DNA of 64,000 nucleotides from Rhodoferax saidenbachensis. Its GTDB lineage: Bacteria; Pseudomonadota; Gammaproteobacteria; Burkholderiales; Burkholderiaceae_C. Each line of letters begins with the position of its first letter. The stretch's first letter is position 1. The notes beneath the pieces are model-generated. The model had not been told where the DNA came from. It made no database searches and worked only from the letters and a program-made list of their open reading frames with translations. This document shows, in pieces, positions 42,415-50,957 of this stretch. The translations under genes were made by a program, and so were the position numbers. The DNA is taken from NCBI RefSeq assembly GCF_001955715.1, contig NZ_CP019239.1, forward strand, positions 2,976,001-3,040,000, given 5' to 3'.

Positions 42415-44226
42415 ATGAGCGCCAATACCCCAGCATCCCCCGCCAACGCCCCCGAAACACCCAAGATCAGCAACTTCCTGCGCCAGATCATCGAGTCCGA
42501 TCTGGAAAAAGGCACCTACGCCCAGCGCAAATGGGCCGGCAGCCCCGGCGACGCCGCCCACCACGCGGCGGGCCAGCCAGACCCCGCCAAGATCCGCACC
42601 CGCTTTCCGCCCGAGCCCAATGGCTACCTGCACGTAGGCCACGCCAAGAGCATCTGCATCAACTTTGGCCTGGCGCGTGATTACGGCGGCGTCTGCCACC
42701 TGCGCTTTGACGACACCAACCCCGAGAAGGAAGACACGGAGTACGTCAACTCCATCATCGACGCGGTGAAGTGGCTGGGCTTTGACTGGAATGGTGCGCC
42801 CGATGCGGCCGCCTACCAGGCCAGCGACTACTTTGACTTCATGTACCGCGCGGCGGAATACTTGATCGAAGCCGGCTACGCCTATGTGGACGAACAAACC
42901 GTAGAGCAAATGCGCGTGAACCGTGGCGACTTTGGCAAGCCCGGTGTGGACAGCCCCTTCCGCAGCCGCACGCCCGCCGAAAACCTGGCGCGTTTTCGCG
43001 AGATGCGCGACGGCAAACACGAAGACGGATCGATGGTGCTGCGCGCCAAGATCGACATGGCCAGCCCCAACATCAACATGCGCGACCCGGCCATCTACCG
43101 CATCCGCCGCGCCACCCACCACAACACGGGCGACACCTGGTGCATCTACCCGATGTACACCTACGCCCACCCCATTGAAGACGCGCTGGAGCAGATCACC
43201 CACAGCCTGTGCACGCTGGAGTTTGAAGACCAGCGCCCGTTTTACGACTGGCTGCTGGAGCGATTGGCTGAAGGCGACCTGCTGGCTGCGCCCGCGCCGC
43301 GCCAGTATGAGTTTGCCCGCCTGAACCTCACCTATGTGATCACCAGCAAACGCAAGCTGGCGCAACTGGTGTACGACCACAAGGTGCAAGGCTGGGACGA
43401 CCCGCGCATGCCCACCATCGTGGGCCTGCGCCGCCGTGGCTACACCCCCGCAGCGATCCAAATGTTTGCCGAGCGCATTGGCGTGACCAAGAGCGATAGC
43501 TGGATTGACTACTCCACGCTGGAAGGCTGCCTGCGCGAAGACCTGGAAGCCAAGGCCCACCGCGGCATGGCGGTCATCAACCCCGTCAAGCTGGTGCTGA
43601 CCAACTGGGATGAGGTCATGGGCGCTGGCCACCTGGAGCCCTGCACCCAGCCCGCCCTGCCCCACCCGCCCGAAGGCGTTGAATCGCCAACCCGTCACTT
43701 CACTATCGGCAAAGAAGTGTGGATCGAACGCGAAGACTTTGAAGAAGTGCAACCGAAGGGCTACAAGCGTTTGTTCCCCGGCAATAAAGTGCGCCTGAAA
43801 GGCGGCTACGTGATCGAATGCACCGGCTGCACTAAGGATGCCAACGGCACCATCACCGAAGTGCTGGCCACCGTGGTGCCCGACACCAAGAGCGGCACAC
43901 CGGGCAGCGACTTGGTGAAGGTGAAAGCCGCGATCACCTGGGTCGGCGTGGCCAACGGCGTCAACGCGGAAGTGCGCATGTACGACCGCCTGTTTTTGGA
44001 CGCGCAGCCCGATGCGGGTGGCAAAGACTTTATCGAGAGCCTGAACCCCAACAGCCTGAAAGTCGTCACCGCGATTGTTGAGCCGTCATTAGCCAATGCG
44101 TTGCCGGACCAGAAGTTCCAGTTTGAACGGCATGGGTACTTTGTGGCGGATCGCGTGGATCACGTGCAAGGCAGCAAGCCGGTGTTTAACTTGGCGGTGG
44201 GGTTGAAGGATAGTTGGGGGAAGTAA
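42415..44226 (+). CDS. glnS: Glutaminyl-tRNA synthetase
   Basis: 603 residues, class I synthetase. The HIGH-equivalent is PPEPNGYLHVGHAKSI, and the KMSKS-equivalent is VITSKRKLAQLV. The Rossmann part is followed by the anticodon-binding beta-barrel domains (PVKLVLTNWDE, EVWIEREDFEEV, GNKVRLKGGYVIEC). This fits GlnRS rather than discriminating GluRS. It attaches Gln to tRNA-Gln in the cytoplasm. It is the last housekeeping gene before the AT-richer accessory block. Confidence 0.96.
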   Translation: MSANTPASPANAPETPKISNFLRQIIESDLEKGTYAQRKWAGSPGDAAHHAAGQPDPAKIRTRFPPEPNGYLHVGHAKSICINFGLARDYGGVCHLRFDDTNPEKEDTEYVNSIIDAVKWLGFDWNGAPDAAAYQASDYFDFMYRAAEYLIEAGYAYVDEQTVEQMRVNRGDFGKPGVDSPFRSRTPAENLARFREMRDGKHEDGSMVLRAKIDMASPNINMRDPAIYRIRRATHHNTGDTWCIYPMYTYAHPIEDALEQITHSLCTLEFEDQRPFYDWLLERLAEGDLLAAPAPRQYEFARLNLTYVITSKRKLAQLVYDHKVQGWDDPRMPTIVGLRRRGYTPAAIQMFAERIGVTKSDSWIDYSTLEGCLREDLEAKAHRGMAVINPVKLVLTNWDEVMGAGHLEPCTQPALPHPPEGVESPTRHFTIGKEVWIEREDFEEVQPKGYKRLFPGNKVRLKGGYVIECTGCTKDANGTITEVLATVVPDTKSGTPGSDLVKVKAAITWVGVANGVNAEVRMYDRLFLDAQPDAGGKDFIESLNPNSLKVVTAIVEPSLANALPDQKFQFERHGYFVADRVDHVQGSKPVFNLAVGLKDSWGK

Positions 44227-44303
44227 TCAAATAGCAGTCGCATATTTATGAACACACCCCAAGCCCATCCAACTATTCAACGTCTTTGCAAAGTAACTGC
44301 GGG

Positions 44304-46442
44304 ATGAAAAGTACGATCACTCGCAGGAGCTCCCTCAAGGAGCCACTAGGCGATGCGCCGTTTCTCGGAGCTTCAATTGAGACCAATGAAGTAGTCCTGA
44401 ACGGCGATGCGTTCGATCTTTTGCACGAACTCCAGCCAGCATCAGTCGACTTGATCATTACTAGCCCGCCATACTGGGGGCATCGCGAATATGGCATGAG
44501 CCACAACTGGGACTTTTTCAATGACATTGCAACTGTTCGGGAAATAGGGGCAGCAACTCCCGGTTATGAGTGGTACAGAGAAAAGGGGGGACTTCTAGGA
44601 CTCGAACCGTACCCGGAATGGTATGTCGCTCATCTAGCCAGCATTTTCTCCCGTGCAAACAGATGCCTGAAGGCTGACGGCAATCTGTGGATCAATATTG
44701 GCGATACATATTTCGCACGCTGGAGCAGCATCCGCGATGGTGGACGACAAGGATTGGGCGACGATGATCGGAACCGCCGAAAGACGCCAATGGGAGGGGT
44801 TCGACAAGAAAAGCAGTTGCTACTAATTCCATCTCGTTTTGCTATCGCAATGCAGGAGCATGGGTGGATTCTGCGCAATGATGTGATATGGCATAAGCCT
44901 AACGCGACTCCCAGACCTGAAGGAGATCGTCTCAAGCTCGCACATGAGCATTTTTTCCATTTTGTGAAGAAACCAAAGGAAGGGCGGGCTACGTATTACT
45001 ACAAGCCCGAATATGCGGAGCCGCGAAGCAATGACGTGGTGACTGTCAATGTCGCGCCAGGAGAAGATGGACATACAGCCACGTTTCCTCATGCACTCAT
45101 TGAACCTCGCATCCTCACCTCATCACCGCCCGATGGTGTAGTACTGGATCCATTTTGCGGAACAGGCCGATCTCTTGAAGTCGCTAAACGTTTGGGACGA
45201 AAAGTGATTGGATTTGATGCGCAAATCAAATACGCAGACCTAACTCGAAACAAACTAGGAAGCCCAATGAACAAAAAACAAAAAGAAACTAAAGGCGACG
45301 TTAAAGGAAATTTCGTTAGCGAGTGGTTTGGCCAACGAATCTATCCACTGGTTCGCCTAGATATGGCTGCAGTTTCCGGAAAACGCGCGGGCACTTGCCA
45401 GTTCCTCACAAATATTCTAAAGACGAGTACTGATTGCGTAAAGAATGAGAACTCACAAGGAGTTTGCTCCATAAGTGCAACTAGCAACGGTCCTCGACAA
45501 GATTGGCTCGTATGCCCATATCGAGTCATCGATTCAGAAATTGTCAAACGCGGCTGCACGATGATTTTTGGGCTCAGTACAGACGTAAAACCAATCCCAG
45601 TTTCGCTGCTAAAACATGAAGGCGAGTTAGACAAATTTAAAAAATCCGTTGAATCCTCAGGTAGCGGATATCTTTTCTTTCAAGATAAGCTAGGCGGAGA
45701 AATTTCCATACTCTCCACTGAAAAATCACCTGAAATGGCTTTTGATGTCACGCTCGTCGAAATCAAATGCGTTGCAGGTGTGTTCCAAGTAGCTCGATAT
45801 GGCATCTTGGAAATTCAAACAATGGACTTTCACGGCTCATACAAACACGCCGTAACAAACTTGCGTGATGCCTTACGTTTGCACGGGAAAGAATTTCCAG
45901 AGGCACTACAAGCAAAGCCAGAATGGGCAGGCAAACAAGTTGAGGGGCCAAACATTGCCAACGTGTTTAAGCGGACCTTCTACCAGATCATGCTCAAGTT
46001 CAAATTATCTGGTCGTGGTTCTGCAGCAGGAACTGTGCTCGCGCTACCTCGATCCGTTTGGGATAGTTGGCAGCCATTTTTAGGGGCCCCAACACTAGAG
46101 GATGAAAGCCCGGGAATCAAACGCTTCAAAATTCACGACAAAGACGCGAAACAGGAAATTCTGAATTCATTTATCTGCGTTTTTGATGTTGATGCGGCAC
46201 AAAACAGTTCCAGCTCACCGATCAAAATTGATCACTTCATCAGAGTTTCGCCTGAGCAGCTCGCACACCATGCTTTTACTGAAGTTCCGAACCACATGTT
46301 GAATACGATTCAAAACAGCGATGCCGTGCTTTCAAGGATCAAGTCGAGACTGTTGGACTGGTGGCCCGATTTACCTAGTGATGACAGAAACAACAAAGTT
46401 GCTCGCAAAAGAATCGTCAAGTCGAAAAGTCAGCCAACTTAA
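44304..46442 (+). CDS. Fused DNA methyltransferase and NotI-like restriction endonuclease
   Basis: 712 residues with base use lower in GC than the neighbours (for example runs of AAACAAAAAGAAAC near 45270), suggesting transfer. Residues ~25-320 are a beta-class methyltransferase: catalytic TSPPYW (~54) precedes SAM motif DPFCGTGRSLEVAKRLG (~281); SPPY suggests N4-cytosine. After MNKKQKETKGDVKG (~322-335) the rest is NotI-like: four Cys in GTCQF, TDCVKN, GVCSIS and LVCPYR (~365-404), with SNGPRQDWLVCPYR, then FDVTLVEIKC and EIQTMDFHGSY (~480-510) as probable active site. ATG 45267 with TAGGA upstream could express the endonuclease alone. The TTG at 44286 is another possible start. Confidence 0.88.
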   Translation: MKSTITRRSSLKEPLGDAPFLGASIETNEVVLNGDAFDLLHELQPASVDLIITSPPYWGHREYGMSHNWDFFNDIATVREIGAATPGYEWYREKGGLLGLEPYPEWYVAHLASIFSRANRCLKADGNLWINIGDTYFARWSSIRDGGRQGLGDDDRNRRKTPMGGVRQEKQLLLIPSRFAIAMQEHGWILRNDVIWHKPNATPRPEGDRLKLAHEHFFHFVKKPKEGRATYYYKPEYAEPRSNDVVTVNVAPGEDGHTATFPHALIEPRILTSSPPDGVVLDPFCGTGRSLEVAKRLGRKVIGFDAQIKYADLTRNKLGSPMNKKQKETKGDVKGNFVSEWFGQRIYPLVRLDMAAVSGKRAGTCQFLTNILKTSTDCVKNENSQGVCSISATSNGPRQDWLVCPYRVIDSEIVKRGCTMIFGLSTDVKPIPVSLLKHEGELDKFKKSVESSGSGYLFFQDKLGGEISILSTEKSPEMAFDVTLVEIKCVAGVFQVARYGILEIQTMDFHGSYKHAVTNLRDALRLHGKEFPEALQAKPEWAGKQVEGPNIANVFKRTFYQIMLKFKLSGRGSAAGTVLALPRSVWDSWQPFLGAPTLEDESPGIKRFKIHDKDAKQEILNSFICVFDVDAAQNSSSSPIKIDHFIRVSPEQLAHHAFTEVPNHMLNTIQNSDAVLSRIKSRLLDWWPDLPSDDRNNKVARKRIVKSKSQPT
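45257..45269 (+). promoter_or_regulatory. Internal ribosome binding site and start at the domain junction
   Basis: AGGA at 45257-45260 stands six bases before ATG 45267, exactly where the methyltransferase ends and the NotI-like part begins. Use of this start would give a ~391-residue endonuclease, close to the length of NotI itself. Confidence 0.5.
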
Positions 46443-46451
46443 TTTATCGGA

Positions 46452-47030
46452 TTGAGTGAACACCGCACGTCTTACACGGTCCGACGCAACTTGCAACCCC
46501 AACCCATCCTCCACTTCTGGTTCGAAGAGCTAACCGCCAAGCAGCACTTCGTCAAAGACGCCGCACTGGACGAAACCATTCGCGCGCGGTTTGGCGACAC
46601 GCTGGAAGCGGCGGCGCGATGTGAACTGTTTGCGTGGCGCACAACGGCCGAAGGGCGGCTGGCGGAGATCATTGTGTTGGACCAGTTCTCGCGCAACGTG
46701 TACCGCGACACACCGCGCGCCTTTGCGCAGGACGCGCTGGCGCTGGTGTTGGCGCAGGAGCTGGTGGCAAGTACGCAGGACCGCAGCCTGCCTGAAGCGC
46801 AACGCGTGTTCGCCTACATGCCCTACATGCACAGCGAGTCCGCGCTGGTGCATACGCAGGCGGTGGCGCTGTTTACGCAGCTGGGCATACAAGACAACCT
46901 GAACTTCGAGCTGCTCCACAAAGCCATCGTCGACCGCTTCGGTCGTTACCCCCACCGCAACACCATCCTGGGCCGCACCTCCACCGCCGAAGAGCTGGCC
47001 TTCCTGAGCGAACCGGGGTCTTCGTTCTAG
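46452..47030 (+). CDS. DUF924 family protein
   Basis: 192 residues from TTG 46452; a later TTG start at 46490 (QPQPILHFWF) is also possible as there is no ATG in the N-terminal part. The PILHFWFEE start, the LDQFSRNVYRDTPRAFAQD block, the YMPYMHSES and HRNTILGR segments are those of DUF924, a helical family of unknown function. Its product is duplicated, truncated, at 48202-48699. It begins 10 bp after the fused methyltransferase-endonuclease but has ordinary GC, so the link is positional only. Confidence 0.8.
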   Translation: MSEHRTSYTVRRNLQPQPILHFWFEELTAKQHFVKDAALDETIRARFGDTLEAAARCELFAWRTTAEGRLAEIIVLDQFSRNVYRDTPRAFAQDALALVLAQELVASTQDRSLPEAQRVFAYMPYMHSESALVHTQAVALFTQLGIQDNLNFELLHKAIVDRFGRYPHRNTILGRTSTAEELAFLSEPGSSF

Positions 47031-47039
47031 GTTTTGGCT

Positions 47040-47098
47040 TGTAGTTGCGACGCTTTTGTAGCGTCCCAGGTTCCATTTACCTGGGCCTCAGGCCTATT
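47040..47098 (+). repeat. Repeat A copy 8 (divergent)
   Basis: GTAGTTGCGACGCTTTTG, TAGCGTC and then CTGGGCCTCAGGCCTATT; the centre has diverged from the usual TAGCTGCTTGCGCA. It starts ten bases after the DUF924 stop. Confidence 0.5.
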
Positions 47099-47133
47099 CT
47101 TCATACAAAGCCCTGTGGCAATCAACTGAAAAT

Positions 47134-47950
47134 ATGCCTGCACTTCAGCACTTTGCAATCCGCAGCCTTTTCCTCGTCGCGTGCGTGATCCTGGCCTCCT
47201 GCCAAAAGGCGGAGCTCCGGTACTCTGCCAGTCTGGATCGCGCCGCGTTGATGCTCTTAGCTTTTCCTACGTGGCAGGCAAATGGCCCTGGCTTGGTTCA
47301 GCAAGTTGACCTGTCTGCAACGGCCAATGACAAACACAACACGCAACCGCCTGCAACGCGTGCAGAGATCACGCCCATCTATGTGGTGCGGTTGGACGAA
47401 ACGCACGCGGCTCTGCTGACCAACACCCGAGCCATTGCCGAAGACAACCAGCGCCCCTACACCTGCCACATGTGCCCTGGATTCGTGGGAGCCTATTTCT
47501 TTGAGCACGATGCCAATGGCTGGCGAATGACGGCCAGACAGGATGCGGCAACACAAAGCGGTGTGGAAGGCGACATCGGCACGACCAGCATCGCGAAGCT
47601 ATCCGACGGCCACTACGCCTTGGCGTCCGAGTGGGGAAGCTGCTGGCAAGGCTACCCTCTTGTCGCGTGGCATTCCTCTGTCGGCCAACAATGATGGAGC
47701 CTATGGCGCCTGCAGCGCGCTAGATTCGCCGCCGACAGAGCCCGAAGACAAGCACGAATGCTTCGATGTCCGCGGCAAGTGGAAATTTCTGCAAGGTCGT
47801 TTGCTAGTCAACTTTGATGGACGCCTGAGCTTGATGAACGGAGCCAACGAACTGTTGCCAACAGAACAGGTTCACGAACAAGCCGTCTACGAGGTAGTTA
47901 AGGAATCGCTTGAGCTTGTAAAGGGCAAGAACCCAGTGCCAAATTTTTGA
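47134..47950 (+). pseudogene. Frameshifted hypothetical lipoprotein
   Basis: The first frame (47134-47694) begins with a lipoprotein-type signal (MPALQHFAIRSLFLVACVIL followed by ASC) and has HMCPGFVGAYFFEHDANGWR, then stops after WHSSVGQQ. A second frame continues without stops to 47950 (DGAYGACSALDSPPTEPEDK, HECFDVRGKWKFLQGR, ELVKGKNPVPNF) and has protein-like composition. The change of frame near 47660-47690 suggests a frameshift in one original gene of about 270 codons. A sequencing error is an alternative. No function recognised; four Cys in the product suggest a disulphide-containing exported protein. Confidence 0.6.
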
Positions 47951-48020
47951 GGCTCCAGCGCAGGTACGACTTGATTTCGCTGGCGAATTGCGATCGGCCC
48001 TCCAGATTCAGACCTGTATC

Positions 48021-48077
48021 TGCTACGGATTTGGTAGCTTCTTGTGCATATTCCACGGGGGCTAGAGGCCAATTTGA
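48021..48077 (+). repeat. Repeat A copy 9 (intergenic)
   Basis: TGCTACGGATTTGGTAGC, TTCTTGTGCATATTCCACG and GGGGGCTAGAGGCCAATTT, one of the best-conserved copies. It lies between the lipoprotein remnant and the truncated DUF924 copy. The rest of 47951-48201 shows no feature I can support. Confidence 0.75.
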
Positions 48078-48201
48078 CACACAAACAGCCTACTCCGGCA
48101 AACTCGTAGCCATGCGCCCCTTCCAGACTGCATTGCCTATTCTGAAAATTCAGGTGGAGGCCTTGCCATTTGCGTGACGGAACCCATAAGACGGCACAAA
48201 C

Positions 48202-48699
48202 TAAGCCAAGCAGCACTTCGTCAAAGGCGCCGCGCTGGACGAAACCATTCGCGCTCGGTTTGGCGACACGCTGGAAGCTGCGGCGCGGTGTGAGTTATTT
48301 GCGTGGCGCGCAACGGCCCAGGGGCGGCTGGTGGAGATCATCGTGTTGGACCAGTTCTCGCGCAACGTCTACCGCGACACGCCGCGCGCCTTTGCGCAGG
48401 ACGCGCTGGCGCTGGTGTTGGCGCAAGAGCTGGTGGCCAGCGGGCAAGACCGCAGCCTGCCCAAAGCGCAGCGCGTGTTTGCCTACATGCCCTACATGCA
48501 CAGCGAGTCCGCGCTGGTGCATACGCAGGCGGTGGCGTTGTTTACGCAATTGGGCATACAAGACAACCTGAACTTCGAGCTGCGCCACAAAGCCATCATC
48601 GACCGCTTCGGCCGTTACCCCCACCGCAACACCATCCTGGGCCGCACCTCCACCGCCGAAGAGCTGGCCTTCCTGAGCGAACCGGGGTCTTCGTTCTAG
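48202..48699 (+). pseudogene. Truncated second copy of the DUF924 gene
   Basis: From GCCAAGCAGCACTTC (~48205) on, it matches the DUF924 gene at 46452-47030 closely to the same end (FLSEPGSSF) and into the following repeat A. The N-terminal ~30 codons are missing: the in-frame TAA just upstream (CAAACTAA region) leaves no proper start. GTG 48331 could start a 122-residue remnant only. The duplication, with the lipoprotein remnant and repeats between, marks a local rearrangement. Confidence 0.75.
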
Positions 48700-48713
48700 G
48701 TTTGCCCCTGCAG

Positions 48714-48770
48714 TTGCTACGCTTTTAGTAGCTGCTTGCGCACACCCTGATTGGGCTAGATGCCGATTTC
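48714..48770 (+). repeat. Repeat A copy 10 (after DUF924 remnant)
   Basis: TTGCTACGCTTTTAGTAGC, TGCTTGCGCACACCC and GGGCTAGATGCCGATTT. Both DUF924 copies are followed by a repeat A at the same spacing, so it was probably part of the duplicated segment. Confidence 0.75.
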
Positions 48771-48805
48771 ATACCTAAATTGCCCTTTACGCCGATATTA
48801 TTTAA

Positions 48806-48855
48806 TTGTTTCTCAAAATTGACAAAATTGGCAATTTGCTCATAATGAGAAACAA
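48806..48855. promoter_or_regulatory. Operator/promoter of the XRE-AbiEii pair
   Basis: TTGTTTCTCA (48806-48815) and TGAGAAACAA (48846-48855) are perfect 10-bp inverted arms spanning an AT-rich core (TTGACAAAATTGGCAATTTG region) directly before the ATG. TTGACA at 48819-48824 could be a -35 box and CATAAT at 48841-48846 the -10 box (16-bp spacing). The inverted repeat overlaps both, fitting autorepression by the XRE protein. Confidence 0.6.
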
Positions 48856-49356
48856 ATGTCTTCCAATTCACCCGCCATCAATGAAACCGGTACTGCCCAG
48901 CTGCAGGCCCTGGGTGCGCAGATACGCAGCCAGCGCAAGGCTTTACGCCTGAGTGCGACGGTAACGGCCGAGGCGGCGGGCCTGTCTCGGGTGACGCTAC
49001 ACCGCATCGAAAAGGGCGAACCGTCCGTCACCATGGGAGCATGGTGCGGTGTGATGGCAGCACTGGGTATGGCGCTGCAGGCACACAGCGGGGCGCAGGC
49101 CAATACGGCCGGACAAGCACCTGACCGCGCTGGCTGGATACCGGCGCGCGTGGCGCTGGCCGACTACCCGCAACTCCGCGCGCTGGCCTGGCAGGTGCAC
49201 GGCACCGACACGCTCACCCCTATAGAGGCGTTGGACATATACGAACGCAATGCGCGCCACCTGGACTTGCAGGCCATGTCGGTCGATGAGCAGGCGCTGC
49301 TGCAGGCATTGCGTTTGGCCTTGTCGCGCAACCCAGGGAGCAGCGATGCAGTTTGA
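48856..49356 (+). CDS. XRE-family helix-turn-helix protein (probable antitoxin)
   Basis: 166 residues. The HTH_XRE domain (~15-75) has LGAQIRSQRKALRLSATVTA and GLSRVTLHRIEKGEPS. A C-terminal part (~90-160) has LADYPQLRALAWQVHGTDTL, typical of antitoxins paired with AbiEii-type proteins. It overlaps the next gene by 11 bp, implying coupling. It probably neutralises the nucleotidyltransferase and represses the pair at the inverted repeat. Confidence 0.78.
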   Translation: MSSNSPAINETGTAQLQALGAQIRSQRKALRLSATVTAEAAGLSRVTLHRIEKGEPSVTMGAWCGVMAALGMALQAHSGAQANTAGQAPDRAGWIPARVALADYPQLRALAWQVHGTDTLTPIEALDIYERNARHLDLQAMSVDEQALLQALRLALSRNPGSSDAV

Positions 49357-50059
49357 GCGCCCGCACCACCAGCGCATTGCCCATGTACTCGGCGCGCTGG
49401 ATGCAGCCGTGCTGCGTGAGTATGGTTGTCTCTTTGGCGGTGGCACCTGCATTGCGCTGCGCTATGGCGAATACCGGGAGTCGGTGGACATTGACTTTCT
49501 GGTCTCTGACGCGGCAGGTTACCGGGAGCTACGGCAGTTGCTCACCGGCCCCGAGGGCTTGAAGGCCATCAGCCACGCGCACGCCGTGCCGCTGGTGGTG
49601 CTGCGGGAAATACGCGCAGATCAATACGGCATACGCACCCAGGTGCAGATGGATGGCCAGGCCATCAAGCTGGAGATCGTGCGCGAGGCGCGCATCACCC
49701 TGGAACCCCCACTAGACGACGATACGGTGTGTGGCGTGAGCACGTTGACACGACTGGACTTGGCCACCTCCAAGCTGCTGGCCAACTCGGACCGCCAGGC
49801 GGATGACGGCGTTTTCAGCCGCGATGCGATCGACCTGGCCATGATGCGCCTGCCCCTGCCCGCTTTGCGCGCTGCGCTCGCCAAAGCGGCAGAGGCCTAT
49901 GGCCCGTCTGTAGCGCGCGATCTGGGCAAAGCCATTGACCGGCTGCAAAATCGCGCAGGTTGGCTGGAGCGCTGCATGCAAGCCATGGCCATGCAAATGC
50001 CCAAGGCGGTGCTATGGAAAAACGTACGGGCTCTGCGGCGTATCGCGTCTGCCCCCTGA
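49346..50059 (+). CDS. AbiEii/AbiGii-type nucleotidyltransferase (probable toxin)
   Basis: About 237 residues. The nucleotidyltransferase motifs are FGGGTCIALRYGEYRESVDIDF (split here as GGGTCIALRYG and RESVDIDFLV), KLEIVREARI, LATSKLLANSDR and SRDAIDLAMM; these match the four motifs of AbiEii toxins. Start ATG 49346 overlaps the XRE gene, which replaces the usual AbiEi antitoxin. AbiEii-type toxins act in abortive infection or persistence by modifying tRNA 3' ends or other targets; the target here is unknown. Confidence 0.8.
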   Translation: MQFERPHHQRIAHVLGALDAAVLREYGCLFGGGTCIALRYGEYRESVDIDFLVSDAAGYRELRQLLTGPEGLKAISHAHAVPLVVLREIRADQYGIRTQVQMDGQAIKLEIVREARITLEPPLDDDTVCGVSTLTRLDLATSKLLANSDRQADDGVFSRDAIDLAMMRLPLPALRAALAKAAEAYGPSVARDLGKAIDRLQNRAGWLERCMQAMAMQMPKAVLWKNVRALRRIASAP

Positions 50060-50126
50060 ACAAAGGCGTGCTGCTGGAGCCGCGCGTTCGCAAGAGCAAT
50101 CCGGGCTAGGTGAGGGATAAGCCTGA

Positions 50127-50957
50127 CTATTTCCAGAACTGCGCGTCCAGCACCAGGTCTTGCGTCACTTCCCGCTCGCCGGGGTTTGCTATGACCACGT
50201 GCAAGCGCGGCGCACCCTGGGCGGGGGTGGCCACTATCCACGAGGCCAAGGTGTATTCCTTGCCGCTGCGCCAGAGGCTGTTGTCGGGGCCATCGTGGTG
50301 GTCACGGGACAGGCTGCTGAATTGTTCTAGCGTGTAGGGCGCGGTGGACTGGCCCAGCAGGCTGTTGATGCGCTGGTAGCGCGTGCGGCTGCTGGCGCTT
50401 GTCTTTTGCGGGTAGGCCTTGGTCAGCTCCGGGTCCAGGTAGTGGTTGGTGTGGGTTGCGGTGCCGCTGTCGTTCACGCTGAGCGCGTATTTACCGTGCA
50501 GGCCCACCTCTACCGTCAGCACCTTGTTGCGGTCAGAGATCAGAAAGAAGTTGGCACGCGACTTGGAAAACACCTTGTCCGCATTGGCAATCAGCGCGTC
50601 CACGCTGTCGTAATCGGTCAGGATCTTGACCATCACGCCGTGCATGTCGGGCTGGTCTTCACGCACACTGCGCGGCAAGTTGCTGGACGCCGACACGATG
50701 GTCAGGCCTTTTTCATTGACACCGGCTTTGAGGCCCGGATCGCCATTGCCCTCGGCATACAGGCCGAAGTAGGCCCAGCCTTTTTTGGGACGCACTTTCC
50801 TCAACACCTGATGGTGGTCGGGCGCCCAATCGCGGTTCTTGGAGATCAGCGTGCCGCCGTCCGCAGCAGTACCCGCCGCACCCCACAGCGTGCATGCCAG
50901 CGCGGGCAAAGGGCTCAATGCGCAGATGAGTGCAGCGATCAGAGGTCTGGTGAACAT
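50127..50957 (-). CDS. C45/linear amide C-N hydrolase family protein
   Basis: 276 residues. A signal peptide (MFTRPLIAALICALSPLPA) ends just before LACTLWGA, so the mature protein starts with Cys, the N-terminal nucleophile of this Ntn-hydrolase family. ISKNRDW and GVNEKGLTIVSASSNLP are family segments. Substrates in the group include penicillins, bile salts, acyl-homoserine lactones and acyl amides; which one applies cannot be read here. It is divergent from udk. Confidence 0.82.
   Translation of the reverse strand: MFTRPLIAALICALSPLPALACTLWGAAGTAADGGTLISKNRDWAPDHHQVLRKVRPKKGWAYFGLYAEGNGDPGLKAGVNEKGLTIVSASSNLPRSVREDQPDMHGVMVKILTDYDSVDALIANADKVFSKSRANFFLISDRNKVLTVEVGLHGKYALSVNDSGTATHTNHYLDPELTKAYPQKTSASSRTRYQRINSLLGQSTAPYTLEQFSSLSRDHHDGPDNSLWRSGKEYTLASWIVATPAQGAPRLHVVIANPGEREVTQDLVLDAQFWK

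Follow-up and report, generated by a model that had tools for sequence, protein, structure and literature searches.

Organization of the Fused Gene

The window analyzed here, a 64,000-nucleotide stretch of the Rhodoferax saidenbachensis genome, carries between glnS and a DUF924 gene one open frame that joins a DNA methylase to a NotI-like endonuclease (Table 1). As a preceding sequence-only reading had stated, with the right coordinates, the methylase runs into the endonuclease within a single frame that contains no internal stop; from stop to stop this frame extends over 735 codons, and an alternative in-frame start, a TTG at 44286, lies upstream of the ATG. The frame has one match within its own genome, whose assembly consists of one contig of 4,264,855 bp. 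The predicted structure of the complete fused protein is a middling model (pLDDT 71.7, pTM 0.54), in which two stretches of the methylase, residues 134-178 and 219-245, have pLDDT values below 50.

Table 1. Features of the window, slots after glnS in sister genomes, and loci with an m5C-type partner
Feature	Position	Strand	Evidence or remark
glnS, left neighbor of the slot	42415..44226	+	name by eye
Fused open frame	44304..46442	+	ATG 44304, stop TAA 46440-46442, 712 aa
Beta-class DNA methylase part, probably cytosine-N4	44304..45266	+	similarity, E 5.6e-38
Motif IV, TSPPYW	44460..44477	+	sequence; present in 24/25 methylases checked
Motif I, DPFCGTG	45147..45167	+	sequence; LDPF[CSA]G[TS]G in 25/25 methylases checked
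AGGA, modest Shine-Dalgarno-like site upstream of internal ATG	45257..45260	+	-4.2 kcal/mol
In-frame internal ATG, where relatives start their separate endonuclease	45267..45269	+	
Linker and first endonuclease residues, low model confidence	45282..45353	+	residues 327-350, pLDDT < 50
NotI-family endonuclease domain	45306..46370	+	similarity to NotI, E 2.1e-72
Four cysteines at NotI positions	45396..45515	+	codons at 45396, 45435, 45465, 45513
Residues matching NotI E145, D160, E182, Q184	45699..45818	+	codons at 45699, 45744, 45810, 45816
DUF924 gene, right neighbor of the slot	46497..47030	+	PF06041, E 3.6e-63
Slot, window	44227-46496		
Slot, L083	1949-6241		
Slot, L085	1808-5902		
Slot, L086	7410-7442		
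Slot, L087			
m5C-partner loci			L011, L012, L014, L017, L018, L021, L022, L023, L031, L032, L035, L036, L039

In the methylase part, motif IV precedes motif I, which is the order of the beta class, and the fold is that of N6_N4_Mtase; the earlier assignment to a beta-class enzyme with TSPPYW followed by DPFCGTG holds. Both motifs were followed through 25 methylases, namely that of the window and those of 24 loci, and the only one lacking TSPPYW, at L008, lies on a contig that begins 3' of the motif position. TSPP-type motifs are associated with cytosine-N4 methylation, and this is probably the chemistry of the window methylase.

The similarity of the C-terminal part to NotI, in both sequence and fold, spans the whole domain. 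The four cysteines, which we take to be the iron-site residues of NotI, are residues 365, 378, 388, and 404 of 712, and each of them is kept in all 38 rows of an alignment comprising 36 loci, NotI, and the window. The residues E145, D160, E182, and Q184, presumably those catalytic in NotI, are all present in the window; among the aligned rows the first three are found in 38/38 and Q184 in 37/38. Two loci were left out of this count and of the endonuclease tree: L007, whose endonuclease is interrupted, and L013, which is cut by a contig end. SNGPRQDWLVCPYR and EIQTMDFHGSY both occur in the fused frame, and the NotI-family marks that had been named from the sequence, that is, these two peptides and the spaced cysteines, are all in place. 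A match to PF12183, the Pfam family named NotI, had been proposed as a check. No match over the curated cut-off was obtained in the window genome, in the window endonuclease part, or in seven related endonucleases scanned (eight NotI-type enzymes with that of the window). This negative is uninformative on NotI membership, because the 354 residues of NotI itself (PDB 3bvq) do not match any Pfam family either (searched to E 10, with most weak matches filtered out). To read it as a refutation would be wrong, and the PF12183 result was dropped as evidence against the NotI family.

Genomic Setting

The fused gene had been described as part of an AT-richer island adjoining glnS, and base composition agrees with this: GC is 51% in the methylase part and 45% in the endonuclease part vs 62% in both glnS and the whole window, and GC3 is 0.48 and 0.44 vs 0.81 in glnS. 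The gene is a low-GC segment, apparently acquired. A comparison of the same place in seven sister genomes (G018, G009, G001, G007, G006, G015, and G014) shows that this genus carries a cargo slot behind glnS, with varied contents. In G018 the slot is nearly empty, with about 30 nt between the glnS and DUF924 matches; G009 holds a dCTPase-type defence gene recognized by PADLOC (E 2e-131) together with a Schlafen-AlbA_2 protein and a PDC-S14 candidate (E 3.5e-109). The slot of G001 encodes a HATPase protein of 732 aa and another of 396 aa that has no Pfam match; G007 has a 194-aa frame without a match, and G006 has frames that look by eye like household genes. In the stretches fetched from G015 and G014, DUF924 was not found; glnS is followed in G015 by HEC-01A (E 1.2e-130) and HEC-01B (E 2.5e-74), both from PADLOC, and in G014 by frames reading as chaperone-usher fimbriae. 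Listed defence genes thus occur in two of the seven genomes (G009 and G015), and the slot is not purely one for defence.

The right border of the slot has features of its own. In the window, DUF924 is duplicated (46536-46835 and 48205-48504, 92% over 300 nt), and in G009 its 3' end occurs four times, the gene's own included, with small frames between the copies (L083 6653-6881, 7550-7778, 8369-8597, and 9258-9367), as if this 3' end were a repeated insertion target. Rfam gave nothing at gathering score over 44000-50200.

Relatives and Partner Methylases

A collection of 84,980 species genomes was scanned with six exact peptide seeds, a procedure that misses seedless relatives, and returned 66 stretches, 38 of which encode a related endonuclease. 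The partner methylase is of the TSPPYW type at 24/38 loci (at L026 it lies on the strand opposite to the endonuclease) and of the m5C type at 13/38, two of the latter being confirmed as PF00145 by Pfam and the other 11 recognized by their PPCQ and ENV motifs; the remaining locus, L013, is cut by the contig end. One NotI-like endonuclease family is thus accompanied by two unrelated methylase kinds, an exchange of partners. On the endonuclease tree, which has long branches and some unsure placements, the fewest changes of partner kind are two, and the well-supported branches alone force one. Because both partner kinds are cytosine methylases, a recognition site without adenine would fit, and the target of the fused enzyme is probably a G+C-only site, GCGGCCGC or a close relative. 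The window's genome does not avoid GCGGCCGC (309 sites vs 196 for the reversed control pattern), which is neutral in this regard.

The same fusion was found once more among the 38 related loci, at L002 in the metagenome assembly WY5.bin77; 36 loci are without it and L013 is cut, so that fused units amount to 2/39 with the window included. The two parts of the L002 protein are 75-80% identical to those of the window, and NG86 gave no dS for the methylase or for the endonuclease part, as happens when silent sites are saturated. In the tree, L002 is the sister of the window gene (bootstrap 98, SH-aLRT 93), and L003, L004, and L005 follow next (95/90). Endonuclease-bearing genomes, the own genome included, are 3/399 in the order set, 1/369 in the class set, 3/399 in the family set, and 1/10 around the genome of L002. 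No fused copy beyond those of the window and L002 was found in these four sets, and their non-window matches are the known loci L002, L005, L004, and L035, seen again as L051, L052, L094, and L095, respectively. The other 60 genomes of the comparison gave no endonuclease match.

Viral contigs contributed four loci (L090-L093), three of which were looked into: L090 carries a separate pair whose genes share a frame but are divided by a stop, L091 an endonuclease only, and L092 only a distant methylase. The whole fused protein matches 149 plasmid records, none of which covers more than 80% of it, and among the 20 matches listed the similarity is confined to the methylase part; the endonuclease part gave no match to phages and plasmids. 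At L007 (6787-8332), what appears to be an insertion sequence, IS3-like by eye, splits the endonuclease gene; the methylase frame has stayed open.

The Junction and the Origin of the Fusion

The expectation that the two parts are normally separate proteins is supported by the 23 same-strand loci with a TSPPYW methylase upstream, 22 of which have separate genes: in 14 the genes lie in different frames, in 8 they share a frame with a stop between them, and only L002 is open. The closest unfused relatives have genes that overlap out of frame, by 41 bp in L003, L004, and L007 and by 26 bp in L005. The aligned DNA of the window and L002 is a net 8 bp longer than that of these four relatives just before the endonuclease ATG, and this difference places the ATG in the methylase frame. 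A modest change in length (net 8 bp) is therefore the likely cause of the join, not the loss of a stop. The sequence-only reading had also considered a recent stop-loss, which does not look probable: a simple event of this kind is doubtful because the genes of the nearest unfused relatives overlap in different frames, and the fusion is not very recent, because it is common to L002, which is 75-80% identical and located elsewhere in its genome. The L002 copy adjoins genes reading by eye as ribonucleotide reductase, not glnS, and the fused unit is consequently known from two unrelated sites.

With a probability of roughly 85%, we regard the locus as a type II restriction-modification system of the NotI family that was acquired horizontally, is carried on one polypeptide, and derives from overlapping, out-of-frame genes through the net 8-bp change. 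The open frame, both domains, the intact active- and metal-site residues, the second fused genome, and the unfused overlapping relatives are all observed. From these we infer the activity, the exact site, the methylation chemistry, the horizontal transfer, and the order of events. The ancestral methylase and endonuclease genes would have overlapped out of frame until the length change brought them into one. The N-terminal methylase would then mark a site made up of G and C alone (probably GCGGCCGC or one closely related to it), and the C-terminal NotI-like domain would cut the unmarked site in invading DNA. A plausible safeguard is that methylation would proceed at low enzyme concentration, while cutting would require two endonuclease domains to pair.

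A single- or double-base error would suffice to join overlapping genes, and a base missed or added at the junction during sequencing or assembly has to be weighed for this reason. However, L002, a separate assembly with different flanks, is likewise open across the junction, and both fused genes differ from the four unfused relatives by the same net 8 bp. Taking into account that the window's genome is also a single contig, an artefact is highly improbable, and the fused gene is genuine and rare, with a second example. The rarity of the fusion (2/39 units) and the L007 endonuclease, insertion-interrupted beside an open methylase frame, would be consistent with an accidental join that was neutral or decaying, tolerated through a weak or silent cutter and effectively a lone methylase. 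Both the window and L002 nevertheless retain the whole frame intact, with the metal-site and catalytic residues, despite 21-24% protein divergence, which makes such a history unlikely.

A further possibility, compatible with the type II system proposed above, is that the single frame gives two products, the fusion and, from the internal ATG, an endonuclease on its own. Since no stop separates the parts, each full methylase made carries the endonuclease; as both fused genes keep the endonuclease ATG with a ribosome site, free endonuclease may also be made. In L002 this place has an AGGAGG-type site with a predicted 16S-tail pairing of -10.7 kcal/mol, the best of 41 ATGs in all frames, but an out-of-frame ATG comes second with a nearly equal -10.6. 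In the window the pairing (-4.2 kcal/mol) ranks only ninth of 47 ATGs in all three frames, and the retained ATG is explicable by plain inheritance. At the endonuclease ATG of unfused relatives, the values are -0.2 (L003), 0.1 (L004), -1.0 (L007), and -5.8 kcal/mol (L005). Some free endonuclease may therefore be made in addition, with better support in L002 than in the window, and we place two products slightly below even odds. Somewhat more tentative is the idea that the fusing length change also created or kept the internal ribosome site, yielding a self-protecting methylase-cutter together with a free NotI-like cutter. If two products are made, translation alone would couple guard and cutter, and the locus would represent a naturally occurring step between type II systems of two genes and enzymes of a single chain.

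Comparison with Known Systems

The fused gene is a rare variant of a familiar type of phage-defence system. The endonuclease resembles NotI (PDB 3bvq, 3c25) in fold, in the four cysteines, in E145/D160/E182/Q184, and at 39% identity; unlike NotI and 36 of the 38 related loci, it is joined in frame behind its methylase. Type IIC and IIG enzymes such as BcgI, Eco57I, and MmeI also combine cutting and methylation on one polypeptide, as predicted for the window from its single frame. Their methylase is of the gamma type, usually preceded by the nuclease and sharing a single recognition domain with it, whereas the fused gene of the window encodes a full-length NotI-like enzyme behind a beta-class methylase. 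Among the NotI-family loci examined, the suggestion of a new restriction-modification layout is therefore justified, but enzymes with both activities on one polypeptide are as such of a known kind.

Two genomes share this natural joining of an orthodox type II pair, and unfused relatives with overlapping genes are available for comparison. The origin of single-chain restriction-modification enzymes can thereby be tested, as can the survival of a host whose rare cutter is at no time synthesized later than the methylase. A single gene may furthermore supply both a rare cutter and the protection against it. A parallel in origin is RM.Eco29kI, reportedly a laboratory-made in-frame fusion of overlapping type II genes with an endonuclease of another family. 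As proposed for the window, overlapping genes were brought into frame there by a small change; in contrast to the artificial RM.Eco29kI, the fusion described here is natural and common to two genomes.
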